Shown here piece by piece: positions 14,494-19,281 of a DNA stretch of 64,000 nt (the stretch's first letter is position 1; every line of letters begins with the position of its first letter). A program made the position numbers and the translations under genes. The DNA is taken from assembly GCA_030018495.1 (NCBI GenBank), contig JASEFS010000004.1, forward strand, positions 62,001-126,000, in the 5' to 3' direction. Source of the DNA: Deltaproteobacteria bacterium. GTDB lineage: Bacteria > Desulfobacterota > Desulfobaccia > Desulfobaccales > 0-14-0-80-60-11. The notes under the pieces were generated by a model. The model worked only from the letters and a program-made list of their open reading frames with translations. It was not told where the DNA came from and searched no databases.

Positions 14494-15069
14494 TTAGGCC
14501 GGGATCAGCTTGTACGGCTCGGCCCGCTTTGCCCACTCGCTCTGCGGATATTTGGCGGTCAGAATATCGTATGCCTTCCGCAAGGGTTTGGGATCGTGGG
14601 TCCTTTTATAGGCCGCCACTCCCTGGAAAAAGACGGCCTCAGGCACCACTTCCGGCACGGGACAGCGGTCGATAACCTCTTCGAAAAGAGCCTGGGCTTC
14701 CGCGAATTGCTCTTGGTCCAGGTAGAAGCGGCCCTTGCCCACCTCGAGGGTGGCGATGAATACATCAGGCTGCAAGAATCCCACGATGCGATAGTGCTCC
14801 TTGCCGTCCGCATCCAGCACCAGGATGGTGGGCGTCCAGGAAACATTGTATTTTTCCGTCATCGCTTTATTGGAGACCTCGATTTGCACCGGGATGAAAT
14901 TGAGGTCAACAAATCTTGCCACACCTTCGTTGGGGTACGTCACGGCACCCATCTGCTGGCAGCCGATTCACTGAGGGTTGTAAAAATCCAGCAGAATGGG
15001 CTTATTGGTTTTCCTGGCCGTTTCCTGGGCCTTGCCCAAGTCATCCAGCCAGCACACCCGCATGGCCAT
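14494..15069 (-). CDS. Thioredoxin-like selenoprotein (UxxC) with C-terminal TPR-like helices
   Basis: Translated from ATG 15069 (GGAGG six bases upstream) the frame runs to 14494 with one TGA at 14970-14968, codon 34. The protein around it reads LLDFYNPQ-U-IGCQQMG, placing the TGA exactly on the first Cys of the thioredoxin CxxC, i.e. U34-I-G-C37. The fold continues normally after it (FIPVQIEVSN, the cis-Pro motif SWTPTILVLD, then G-x-F), followed by TPR-like helices (AQALFEEVIDRCP, LRKAYDILTAKYP). Total 191 residues. A bSECIS-like hairpin lies 17 nt after the TGA. If the TGA is taken as a stop, only a truncated protein from Met 14952 lacking the active site is found. Likely a reductive thiol oxidoreductase; partner unknown. 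Confidence 0.87.
14933..14950 (-). promoter_or_regulatory. Candidate bacterial SECIS element
   Basis: On the mRNA, 17 nt after UGA, GGGUGC pairs with GUACCC (six pairs, one G-U) around a six-base loop CGUGAC. The loop carries the G-U dinucleotide, with its G about 25 nt from the UGA, inside the spacing range described for bacterial SECIS elements that recruit SelB. Confidence 0.65.
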
Positions 15070-15234
15070 AGCTGTCCTCCTTTCCTGGGCTTAAGGGTCC
15101 TGGTATGGTTCACTATGTGCCTAAACATAAGCACTAAACAGTTGTTGGCAAGGTCGGCAGGAAGGTATTTGAACGGCCAGACGGTTTGGGAGGAAAAGTC
15201 ATAAATTATATGATTGATCAAAAGACCTATGGAA

Positions 15235-15378: not shown

Positions 15379-18300
15379 ATGTCTGGATTGACCAACCGGG
15401 TTAGTATCGACGCGTTGCGGCAGCAGCTTCCTTATCATAAGCTGCGTCAGGAAAAGGAAAGAGACGTTGTCCACATCGATTGGCAAACCGAATGGGAACG
15501 GTTTGACGCCAGGGAGATGTTCTCCTTTGACCTCTCAACCATTCCCGACAAAATGCTGGAGGCTATTCGGAGCCGCAAAGTCGTACTCATGGACGGCAAC
15601 CAGGCAGCTATTTCCATCCTCACCCGGGTGGCCGACGGACTCTGCGGCTATCCCATCACCCCTTCCACGCCCATAGCCGAGCAGTTTTCCCGGGCCGCCG
15701 CCATGGGACAAAAAAACCTCTGGGGCACGGAACTCATGTATTTCCAACCCTCGGACGAACTCTCGGCCATTGCCTCGGTGGAAGCCATGGCTTCTCAGGG
15801 GGGGCGTTATGTTGACAACACCTCCTCCCAGGGTCTCCTCCTGAAAACGAAAAACCTGTTTTCCGTGGCCGGCAAGCGGCTGCCGGTGGTCATGACCGTC
15901 ATGGCCCGGGAAGTGAACAAAGGCTCGCTCTCCATTCATTGCGGCCATACGGATTTCTATGCCGTGCGCAATTCGGGTTGGGCCCAGTTGGTCTCCGCGG
16001 ACAACCAGGAAATGCATGAACTCCTGCCCATCGCCTTCAAAGTCTCGGAGTTGAAGCAAGTGATGCTTCCCACCATGGTCATCGGCGACGGTTTTATTAA
16101 AAGCCATGCCATCGAAAATATTGCTGAGCTGTCGGATTCTTTTTTGGAATTCTTTGTGGGGCCTCCGAACCGCTTTTATCAGCCCGATTTTGAGCACGGG
16201 GCCCTGACCGGCACCTTCACGGACACCGACCTGACCATGGAAGGCGAAGTGTCCCAGGACCTGGCCTACCGCTTCTTCAAGCGGGGTTTTGTGGCCGCCA
16301 TGAACCTGATGAACCGGATGATCGGCACCAACCTCAAGGTGGTGGAATGCTACCGCACCGAAGACGCGGATATGGTGGTGGTCATATTGGGCTCCGCCGC
16401 GGGCGTGGTCAAAGACGTGGTGGACTATTACCGGGATGTCAAAGGCTATAAGATCGGGGTGGTGCGCCCCGTGCTATTTAACCCGCCCTGCTACGAAGAA
16501 CTGGCCTACGGCATGCGCAAAGCCAAGGTGATCAGCGTCCTGGAACGGAGCGGTACAGCCCACAACCAATTGCTGCTCGCGGATGTGCAGGCCGCCCTCC
16601 AGGTTTCCATCCGGGCCGGCAAGGAAGGCAAGGCCGAGCACCGGGTGTACGGCCGCCAGGACATGCCCACCCTGCTGCACGGCGTCTACGGCCTGGGCAG
16701 CAAGGACTTCAACAAATATGACGCCGCCGCGGTGGTGGAGAACATGATCTCCGTCATGGAAAAAAAGCGGGGCTTTTTGCGGGATTTCTATTGCGGCATC
16801 GAAGGCCCCCTCACCCTGAAGCCGTCCCCCCTGCCGGGCTATCTCGAACGGGAGCTGGGCATGACCTTCATCGGCGTGGGCGCCGAAGGCGTCAAGACCG
16901 CGCTGGAATCCGCCGCGCTGATTTATGCCGAAGATTACGGCACCGGCAGCAAGAAGTACGTCCAGTCCGGGGCCCGCTACGGTGCGGCCCGCAAAGGCGC
17001 GCCGGTGTTTATGAATTTGCGCATCAGCTCCCATCCCATCCGCAACGCCTCGGAGCTCACGGAGCGCAACGTGCTGGCCTTCTTCAACGAAAAATTCCTG
17101 TCAGACCAGATACTGAAGGAATATGTGGGCGGTCTGAAGGAAAAGGGCCTCCTGATCATCAACAGCTGCAAGGACTGCTACGACGTGCTGGCCACCTTTC
17201 CGCCCCAGATTCAGTCTCTCATCAAGTACCGTCAGATCAAGGTCTTCACCCTGGACGCCACCAAATCGGCTTTGCAGTTCCTGAACCGCAATCTGCCGGG
17301 CGCGGCCATTTTGGGTTTGGTCAATAAGGAATTGGGCATCCTCCCGGAAAAGGAATTTGAGCAGCGCCTCAAAAAAATCCTGGAGAAGAAGTTAGGAGGC
17401 AAGAAGGGCAAGGACATTATCGATCCCAATCTGGCCCTTCTGAGATTCGGCGCCAGCCAAGGCGCCGGCAATCCGGGGGAGAAAGCCATAGCCACTTTGG
17501 CTCTGTCTGATGACCAGCCGGAGTACGCTCCGCCGCCTCCCGAAGACTTCGGGCAGGGGCCCGGCACTGCCGGCCTGCCGTTCCGCTTCACCGAGAAAGA
17601 CGAAATGGGCACCATCAAACCCATCCCTCTTATGCCCAATTATCAGGATGTCTTTTACCGGCGCATGGTCAAGCCTATCCTGGATGGCAAAAAAGTGCCC
17701 TGGGACCGCTTTTTGCCCGTGGTGCCCGCGGCCACCAGCCGCTTTCGGGACATGAGTTACATCGGCACCCAGGTCCCGGTTTATGAGGCCGGCAAATGCA
17801 TCGCCTGCGGCTTGTGCGCCGCGTCTTGTCCCGATGCCGCGGTGTACTGCCTGGTCACTCATGAAGAAGTGCCGGCGGACGCCCAAAGCCACTTCAAGAT
17901 TTTCAAGAAGCCGCCCAAGGGCGTGCCCTGGGAGCGGTTCGCCATGAACATCGAGGCTGACCCCAGTGCCTGCAAAGGCTGCGGCGTCTGTGCCCAAGTC
18001 TGTCCCACCGACGCCCTGAAGATGGTGGACAAGACCAAAATAACTCCCTTGGACTTTCTCTCGGAGAGATACCGGAAACTGGACAACACCCTTGAGTTGG
18101 CCTCCCACGTGGATCAATTGCCGCTGAACTATCAGGTGCTTTTCGTCCTTTCCAAACTCTATCCCGGCAAGCACACCCTGTGCCCCGGTTGCAGCGAGGG
18201 AGTGATCAATCTGCTTACCTTCTACGCGGCGGAGTCCCTGCGCAATCATCCCCAGGGCATCGCCACTTTTTATCAAGGCTTGCGCATCCTGTCGGAGAGA

Positions 18301-19281
18301 AACAAGCGGGCCATTGAACACATGCTGGACTATAGTTTCAACATTTACACCATCAACGCCACCGGCTGCGATCAGGTGTCGGAGTTGGTCAACCCCTTCA
18401 ACTCCCGCATCTACCCCACCGGCCACTACGGCTTCGGCACCGCGTCCGCCGCGGCCCTGGGCAGCAAGTTCAGCCTGGATCAGGCTTACATCAATCGTTA
18501 TAACGACGTGCTTACCAAAATCATCGTGTTCGCCGGGGACGGCGCCATTTATGACATCGGCAACGGCCCCTTCAACCACGCCCTGGGCGAGAACTTCGAT
18601 ATCACCTGGGTGATTTACAACAACGAAGGCTATATGAATACGGGCACCCAGAAATCCGGGGCCACCCGCTTCGGGGCCGACCGCTCCACCAGCCCCATCG
18701 GCAGGAAATACGCCGGCAAAACCACGCTGCACCGCCGGATCATCAGCCAGGCCATGGCCATCTCCCACGTTTACGCGGCCAAGCTCACTATTGACAACCC
18801 CTTCTATGCTATCAAAATCTTGAAGGAGGCCATTGCTTATAACGGCCCCTCCATGGTGGAGTTCTTCTCCGCCTGCCCGCAGGGTCATGTCACCCACGAC
18901 TGGGCCGGGCCCCTCATCTCCCGCATGATGGTGGAATCCCGGAAGTGGCAGATAGCCGTGCGCCGACCCTTCCAGAGAATTGATATCTCGGGCAATCCCG
19001 ACCCTGAGCTCATCTATCCCAAGGAGGGCAAGTCCTTTAAGCGGGGCGTGAAACGGGAGGCCGCCACCTTCTATGACGTGGTGAGCATGCTGGGCCAGTA
19101 CAGCCCGCATATCAAGACCGTGAAAAGCGGCGATATCCCCGAAATCGTCCGGGTGAACGAAACCGTGAGCCTCTTCCGGTGGCTCCGGAACCAGTACCTG
19201 GCGGGCTACCGGGATACCATGCCCACTGAAGAGGAAGTGGAAAGGATCGTCGAGGAACGCTACCGCCTGGATGCAGCTTAA
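15379..19281 (+). CDS. Single-chain 2-oxoacid:ferredoxin oxidoreductase (pyruvate-type, NifJ-like architecture)
   Basis: 1300 residues carrying all subunits in one chain. The alpha-type TPP/pyrimidine domain comes first (GYPITPSTPIAEQF near residue 95), then a gamma domain (GVGAEGVKTALESAALI near 500), a two-cluster ferredoxin (CIACGLCAASCP near 807 and CKGCGVCAQVCP near 865) and the beta TPP domain (CPGCSEGVINLL near 934; GDGAIYDIG near 1054, with NNEGYMNTG after it). It oxidises 2-oxoacids with CoA to acyl-CoA, CO2 and reduced ferredoxin, or runs backward for CO2 fixation. It is over 100 residues longer than classical NifJ, so the exact substrate should be left open. Monocistronic: own promoter and a strong terminator behind it. 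Confidence 0.88.
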   Translation: MSGLTNRVSIDALRQQLPYHKLRQEKERDVVHIDWQTEWERFDAREMFSFDLSTIPDKMLEAIRSRKVVLMDGNQAAISILTRVADGLCGYPITPSTPIAEQFSRAAAMGQKNLWGTELMYFQPSDELSAIASVEAMASQGGRYVDNTSSQGLLLKTKNLFSVAGKRLPVVMTVMAREVNKGSLSIHCGHTDFYAVRNSGWAQLVSADNQEMHELLPIAFKVSELKQVMLPTMVIGDGFIKSHAIENIAELSDSFLEFFVGPPNRFYQPDFEHGALTGTFTDTDLTMEGEVSQDLAYRFFKRGFVAAMNLMNRMIGTNLKVVECYRTEDADMVVVILGSAAGVVKDVVDYYRDVKGYKIGVVRPVLFNPPCYEELAYGMRKAKVISVLERSGTAHNQLLLADVQAALQVSIRAGKEGKAEHRVYGRQDMPTLLHGVYGLGSKDFNKYDAAAVVENMISVMEKKRGFLRDFYCGIEGPLTLKPSPLPGYLERELGMTFIGVGAEGVKTALESAALIYAEDYGTGSKKYVQSGARYGAARKGAPVFMNLRISSHPIRNASELTERNVLAFFNEKFLSDQILKEYVGGLKEKGLLIINSCKDCYDVLATFPPQIQSLIKYRQIKVFTLDATKSALQFLNRNLPGAAILGLVNKELGILPEKEFEQRLKKILEKKLGGKKGKDIIDPNLALLRFGASQGAGNPGEKAIATLALSDDQPEYAPPPPEDFGQGPGTAGLPFRFTEKDEMGTIKPIPLMPNYQDVFYRRMVKPILDGKKVPWDRFLPVVPAATSRFRDMSYIGTQVPVYEAGKCIACGLCAASCPDAAVYCLVTHEEVPADAQSHFKIFKKPPKGVPWERFAMNIEADPSACKGCGVCAQVCPTDALKMVDKTKITPLDFLSERYRKLDNTLELASHVDQLPLNYQVLFVLSKLYPGKHTLCPGCSEGVINLLTFYAAESLRNHPQGIATFYQGLRILSERNKRAIEHMLDYSFNIYTINATGCDQVSELVNPFNSRIYPTGHYGFGTASAAALGSKFSLDQAYINRYNDVLTKIIVFAGDGAIYDIGNGPFNHALGENFDITWVIYNNEGYMNTGTQKSGATRFGADRSTSPIGRKYAGKTTLHRRIISQAMAISHVYAAKLTIDNPFYAIKILKEAIAYNGPSMVEFFSACPQGHVTHDWAGPLISRMMVESRKWQIAVRRPFQRIDISGNPDPELIYPKEGKSFKRGVKREAATFYDVVSMLGQYSPHIKTVKSGDIPEIVRVNETVSLFRWLRNQYLAGYRDTMPTEEEVERIVEERYRLDAA

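Follow-up and report, generated by a model that had tools for sequence, protein, structure and literature searches.

In DsbD, a membrane protein, the C-terminal gamma domain (DsbD-gamma) is periplasmic and carries a CxxC motif. Domains of a similar kind that carry selenocysteine (Sec) have been described, and an inventory from 2026, which covers 119 families of prokaryotic selenoproteins, includes a Sec 'thiol:disulfide interchange protein' (PF13098/cd02953, WP_011366075.1; PMC13188914 Table 1, PMC1794560), which combines a DsbD-gamma-like, Thioredoxin_2-type domain with a Sec-first UxxC motif. Sec-containing PF13098 UxxC proteins were reported in 2006 from Geobacter metallireducens, G. uraniireducens and Syntrophus aciditrophicus (PMC1794560 Table 3), and the GOS study filed the type under cd02953, 'Trx-like 2 (Thiol disulfide interchange protein)'. 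Selenoprotein thioredoxins (PF00085, UxxC) also use Sec as the attacking residue of a thioredoxin fold, and NCBIfam holds models of further thioredoxin-like selenoproteins (TsoB, NF045694; VPGUxxT, NF041382 and NF041383; Trx7/PDZ, NF041199). An N-terminal thioredoxin domain followed by C-terminal tetratricopeptide repeats (TPR) is the architecture of CnoX/YbbN (PDB 3qou; PMC6282202), and in Caulobacter CnoX combines holdase and reductase functions (PMC6282202). No thioredoxin-TPR type is described among the 119 families of the inventory, in which the word tetratricopeptide is absent (PMC13188914).

We analyzed a window of 64,000 nucleotides from a genome of the Desulfobacterota (GCA_030018495.1, contig JASEFS010000004.1, positions 62,001 to 126,000); all coordinates below are those of the window. 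A frame on the minus strand runs from an ATG at 15069 to a TAA that ends at 14494, and its sole internal stop is a TGA at 14970-14968. The features of the locus are given here with the evidence for each.

14494-15069, minus strand: predicted selenoprotein reading frame of 191 aa between ATG and TAA, in which codon 34 is TGA (Sec); from frame reading, homologues and purifying selection 5' and 3' of the TGA within a single frame
14968-14970, minus strand: TGA, predicted selenocysteine 34, first residue of a UxxC motif (U-I-G-C37); from translation and an invariant column among relatives
15076-15081, minus strand: Shine-Dalgarno-like AGGAGG, six bases 5' of the ATG; from the sequence (aggaaAGGAGGacagctATG)
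14743-15051, minus strand: thioredoxin-like domain, about residues 7-109; from PF13098 (52.6 bits), PF13899 (40.8 bits), DsbD-gamma as the best PDB match and invariant columns
14518-14734, minus strand: TPR-like helical tail of the YbgF/CpoB/BamD type, about residues 112-184; from TPR models and helices in the structure model
14933-14950, minus strand: candidate bSECIS hairpin, GGGUGC-CGUGAC-GUACCC; from folding energy, covariation and published rules (PMC13188914)
13838-14362, minus strand: macro-domain gene directly downstream; from PF01661 (E 2e-45)

The mechanical list of open reading frames calls this gene as 14494-14952, a product of 152 aa from Met40 that misses both active-site residues. 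This is the truncation that the first-pass annotation, made by a model from the letters of the sequence, had expected of standard gene calling. Taken at face value, the call implies that the gene is decaying and that its TGA is a normal stop or an error, which would leave a 33-residue peptide, the 152-residue Met40 product or a pseudogene, and the output of gene callers matches this reading exactly. The start sites do not fit it. No Shine-Dalgarno sequence precedes Met40 in the upstream sequence that we inspected. The bases directly before the ATG at 15069 are AGGAGG-ACAGCT, and it is this AGGAGG that had been annotated as a good ribosome-binding site.

The comparative data also argue against a decaying gene. 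A profile search detected the family in 84 of the 395 genomes of the phylum. The TGA interrupts the frame in 75 of these and the other nine lack a stop, so that about one fifth of the sampled genomes share both the gene and its TGA. The active-site context of the window protein is NPQ-U34-I-G-C37, and the TGA, which had been placed on the first cysteine of a thioredoxin CxxC, occupies one and the same column in 56 out of 56 distinct loci read, beside an invariant resolving Cys. The internal stops listed by the phylum search are without exception TGA; TAA and TAG do not occur among them. Dozens of genomes assembled independently of one another share the TGA, which excludes a sequencing error and answers the concern that resequencing might remove it. 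In a first search of 59 relatives, the protein was present in 25 genomes (the window's own included), and the TGA was present in all of them except one (G042), which has Cys. The nine no-stop genomes mostly have Cys at the Sec column, and a close relative (G305) reads CVGC in place of the Sec motif. The UGA thus aligns to the redox Cys of homologues, as in bacterial selenoproteins (U in the 56 loci; Cys in G305 and G042). A check of homologues proposed in the first-pass annotation gave Sec or Cys at this column, except in a divergent no-stop clade with Cys, Glu or Asp, and no frameshift. Purifying selection acts in the same frame on both sides of the TGA, with dN well below dS: against a same-genus relative, dN/dS values are 0.09/0.92 upstream and 0.13/0.80 downstream. 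At the level of the family these data refute the decaying-gene reading, and we consider it very improbable for the window gene.

The frame would also be open under a code in which the lineage reads UGA as Trp or another ordinary amino acid. However, several relatives (L020, L104, L105 and L110) end this gene with TGA, which means that the reading of the codon depends on context and that it has not been generally reassigned. No aligned member has Trp at the Sec column, and the window genome encodes the complete set of Sec factors that the first-pass annotation had proposed to look for (selA, selB, selC and selD). The matches are to tRNA-Sec (73 bits), SelA (604 bits), SelB (373 bits) and SelD (387 bits), all above curated cut-offs. 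Terminator TGAs, the column without Trp and the Sec machinery together refute the reading of UGA as an ordinary residue, which we regard as extremely improbable. Decoding of the TGA at 14970-14968 as Sec in a UxxC thioredoxin-like protein is, on this comparative evidence, very likely. As a separate observation, the SelD gene of the window genome (L046, G000:C55:29319-30230) has one in-frame TGA itself and probably encodes a selenoprotein, as in many bacteria.

We compared the distribution of the Sec machinery with the form of the gene. SelB was detected in 72 of the 75 TGA-form genomes; the three without a SelB match (G069, G303 and G358) all have tRNA-Sec and two have SelA. One Sec-form genome (G371) gave no tRNA-Sec match, and the other parts of the machinery were found in it. 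SelB is missing from four of the nine no-stop genomes, and the same four lack SelA and an above-threshold tRNA-Sec. The association of SelB with form (Fisher p = 0.002) is uncorrected for relatedness, and three of the four SelB-less genomes belong to one genus. On the tree, the Sec-form or no-stop label requires three changes. The pattern is clearest within a single genus, where G305 (Cys) has no tRNA-Sec, SelA or SelB, and G376 (Sec) has all three. This within-genus contrast between Sec and Cys goes with the loss of the Sec machinery and offers a clean natural experiment on the benefit of selenium in a thioredoxin-fold enzyme. The TGA form of the gene is present in two or three copies in some genomes (G371, with L089 and L090; G328; G256).

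The published rules for bSECIS elements are a stem of 4-16 bp, a loop of 3-9 nt, a G in loop positions 1-2, a UGA-to-loop distance of 16-37 nt and a minimum free energy of at most -7.5 kcal/mol (PMC13188914). The hairpin of the window falls within each of these ranges. Its 6-bp stem starts 17 nt 3' of the UGA, its six-base loop lies at 23 nt and has G and U at positions 2-3, and it folds on its own at -8.8 kcal/mol. For the window sequence this energy is ordinary (z = -1.5), and 17 of 200 shuffles are equally stable. Energy alone does not separate the site from shuffles, and we set it aside as evidence; the argument rests on conservation. Among 22 sequences, the six base pairs are preserved in 98.5% of cells, both sides have changed at three of them, and the pairing is unmatched by any of 500 shuffles or any register shift. 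Among 56 sequences, 321 of 336 cells are paired, compared with a shuffle maximum of 309. What stands above chance in the sequence data is thus the conservation of the hairpin in relatives and the single-column TGA of the 56 loci, not the hairpin energy. The hairpin had been noted at first pass for its position 17 nt after the UGA and the G-U in its loop; the spacing is right, and the structure is conserved and covaries in relatives.

Codon usage over the hairpin shows the same pattern at two positions. The Thr44 codon is ACG in every one of the 56 sequences that has Thr there. In 43 of 45 cases the Tyr45 codon goes with codon 41 (TAT with GAT, TAC with GGT), and the synonymous choice at Tyr45 thus tracks a base four codons upstream. 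This covariation corresponds to about four changes on the tree, of which only two lie on well-supported branches. In one subgroup (G033, G085, G141, G223 and G357; loci L095, L096, L116, L134 and L041) the standard pairing is broken and an alternative hairpin with a GGUC loop is found. Thr44 is replaced by Ala (GCG) in this subgroup, in which the SECIS appears to have been refolded together with its coding sequence.

The thioredoxin fold had been said to continue downstream of the TGA, through the cis-Pro strand, and the domain assignment bears this out. The window protein scores 52.6 bits against PF13098, for which the cut-off is 27, and has the Sec-first motif of the PF13098 UxxC type. U34-x-G-C37 and W78-T79-P80 are invariant among aligned members, and the latter fits a predicted cis-Pro loop. 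For residues 3-110, the best match both by sequence and by predicted fold is the C-terminal domain of DsbD (DsbD-gamma; PDB 1uc7, 2fwe-2fwh and 6dnu); thioredoxins are matched as well, again by both routes. Unlike DsbD-gamma, the window protein stands alone, with a UxGC motif, an added tail and no apparent signal peptide. No signal sequence is apparent at the N-terminus of any member; the protein is therefore probably cytosolic.

The TPR tail of the first-pass annotation is real but short. A YbgF-type TPR model matches 20 out of 20 aligned relatives (E <= 0.01) and TPR_6 matches 13 of the 20, although the window protein itself is below the Pfam cut-offs of single TPR models. An AlphaFold model of the window protein, computed from an input of only two sequences, has a mean pLDDT of 64 with low confidence at 111-140, and its topology fits a thioredoxin domain followed by a helical tail.

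We propose the following mechanism. SelB, bound to the hairpin just 3' of codon 34, would bring Sec-tRNA to the UGA, and translation would run on into the second half of the thioredoxin domain and then the TPR-like tail. In the finished protein, Sec34 would attack a disulfide (or other oxidized group) of a client, Cys37 would resolve the selenenylsulfide, and the tail would dock the client or a partner. Sec decoding, UxxC placement, the fold family, SECIS conservation and the decoding machinery are supported by the sequence evidence; we infer the redox direction and the use of the tail as a docking surface. A cytosolic thiol/selenol-disulfide oxidoreductase with a docking tail is, in our assessment, a reasonably likely role.

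In another possible role, the protein would act as a chaperedoxin in the manner of CnoX/YbbN, protecting or holding clients and passing them on to a chaperone, and Sec would serve as a protective residue that reacts quickly. The order of the domains, thioredoxin then TPR, is the same in both, and E. coli YbbN (3qou) aligned to the model over 184 columns, but with only 16% sequence identity in the structural match and poor superposition. The TPR_20 module is typical of CnoX. It is unmatched, and TPR_19 was found in only one of 20 members. The tail of about 75 residues is also far shorter than that of YbbN, the thioredoxin domain is DsbD-gamma-like, and the motif is UxGC as opposed to the SxxC or WCG/XPC of CnoX. 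We found no ordinary CnoX in the window genome, a point in favor of the chaperedoxin role: the two TPR_20 matches of the genome were considered as CnoX and rejected, as both are TPR proteins with no evident thioredoxin domain. On balance we judge a chaperedoxin role unlikely. Similarly doubtful is the broader idea that one phylum has a widespread family of selenoproteins so far undescribed, acting in the cytosol as a 'seleno-chaperedoxin' whose UxGC domain would repair or guard specific clients held on the TPR-like tail, dependent on Sec in most lineages and on Cys after loss of the Sec machinery.

The oxidoreductase role that we favor may not extend to all relatives. In the divergent no-stop clade (family f58, L078-L086), most members have Ser for the resolving Cys, and two (G240b and G337) have Glu or Asp at the Sec position. 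These replacements indicate that some relatives can do without redox chemistry. They hint at a non-redox offshoot, in which binding via the fold or the tail could matter independently of redox chemistry.

We compared the family to described thioredoxin-like selenoproteins. The window protein does not pass the cut-off of any NCBIfam 20.0 model. Its 20 aligned relatives do match some models, but not one of these represents a thioredoxin domain with a TPR-like tail. The TsoB, VPGUxxT and Trx7/PDZ models share a related thioredoxin domain and give weak partial matches of at most 49.5 bits (cut-offs 805, 275, 350 and 300), but they represent other architectures and other Sec motifs. The thioredoxin model TIGR01068 gives 35.5 bits (cut-off 96.8), which sets the window protein apart from the selenoprotein thioredoxins as a member of another thioredoxin subfamily with an added tail.

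The comparison with the published Sec 'thiol:disulfide interchange protein' is closer, and it concerns the novelty of the family and not the Sec reading. Syntrophus belongs to the same phylum as the window genome, which favors the view that the window protein is this known protein with a tail that went unremarked. The domain and Sec motif are the same as in the published entry (PMC13188914 Table 1; PMC1794560 Table 3), and the filing of that type under cd02953 in the GOS study agrees with a window protein closest to DsbD-gamma. On the other hand, TPR is unmentioned in the papers searched on these selenoproteins, and the window genome encodes a second Sec protein of the same fold (L010), tail-less, which fits the old description equally well. 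The window family carries a TPR-like tail that is conserved, together with the motif FxNPxU[IL]GC; by these features it may differ from the published PF13098 UxxC proteins, with which it was compared by description. Compared in this way, the two families may be identical; we consider this quite possible, if somewhat short of an even chance. The first-pass annotation could name no thioredoxin-TPR selenoprotein. The inventory agrees on that point, but the isolation of the protein was overstated, as PF13098 UxxC Sec proteins have been in print since 2006 (PMC1794560).

The second Sec protein (L010, G000:C28:284-610, minus strand) is a thioredoxin-like frame of 112 aa with an in-frame TGA, the motif MEGUPHC and no TPR tail. 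A hairpin-like GGUC-CGUGA-GACC lies about 18 nt 3' of its TGA, and it scores below every NCBIfam cut-off.

For annotation, the consequence is that a standard gene caller would strip the active site from the family in each of the 75 TGA-form genomes. A family model that includes the Sec column would put these records right and extend the list of prokaryotic selenoproteins by a thioredoxin-TPR type.

Finally, we clustered the neighbors of the gene at the window locus and 66 other loci and found no neighbor that recurs across the phylum. The macro-domain gene to which attention had been drawn is indeed directly downstream in the window, but it is absent beside the gene elsewhere in the phylum: its clusters (c3 for the gene, c5 for the antisense shadow) adjoin the selenoprotein gene only in the window's own family (f1). 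One more c3 member (in G141) is about 2 kb from the selenoprotein gene, on the other strand. As the association held only within the window's own family, we rejected a functional link and regard the macro-domain neighbor as local synteny that gives no functional clue. Divergent from the selenoprotein gene, at 15379-19281 of the window, is a 1300-aa fusion of the pyruvate:ferredoxin oxidoreductase type (POR_N, POR, Fer4 and TPP), which is a neighbor of the gene only in the window's family.
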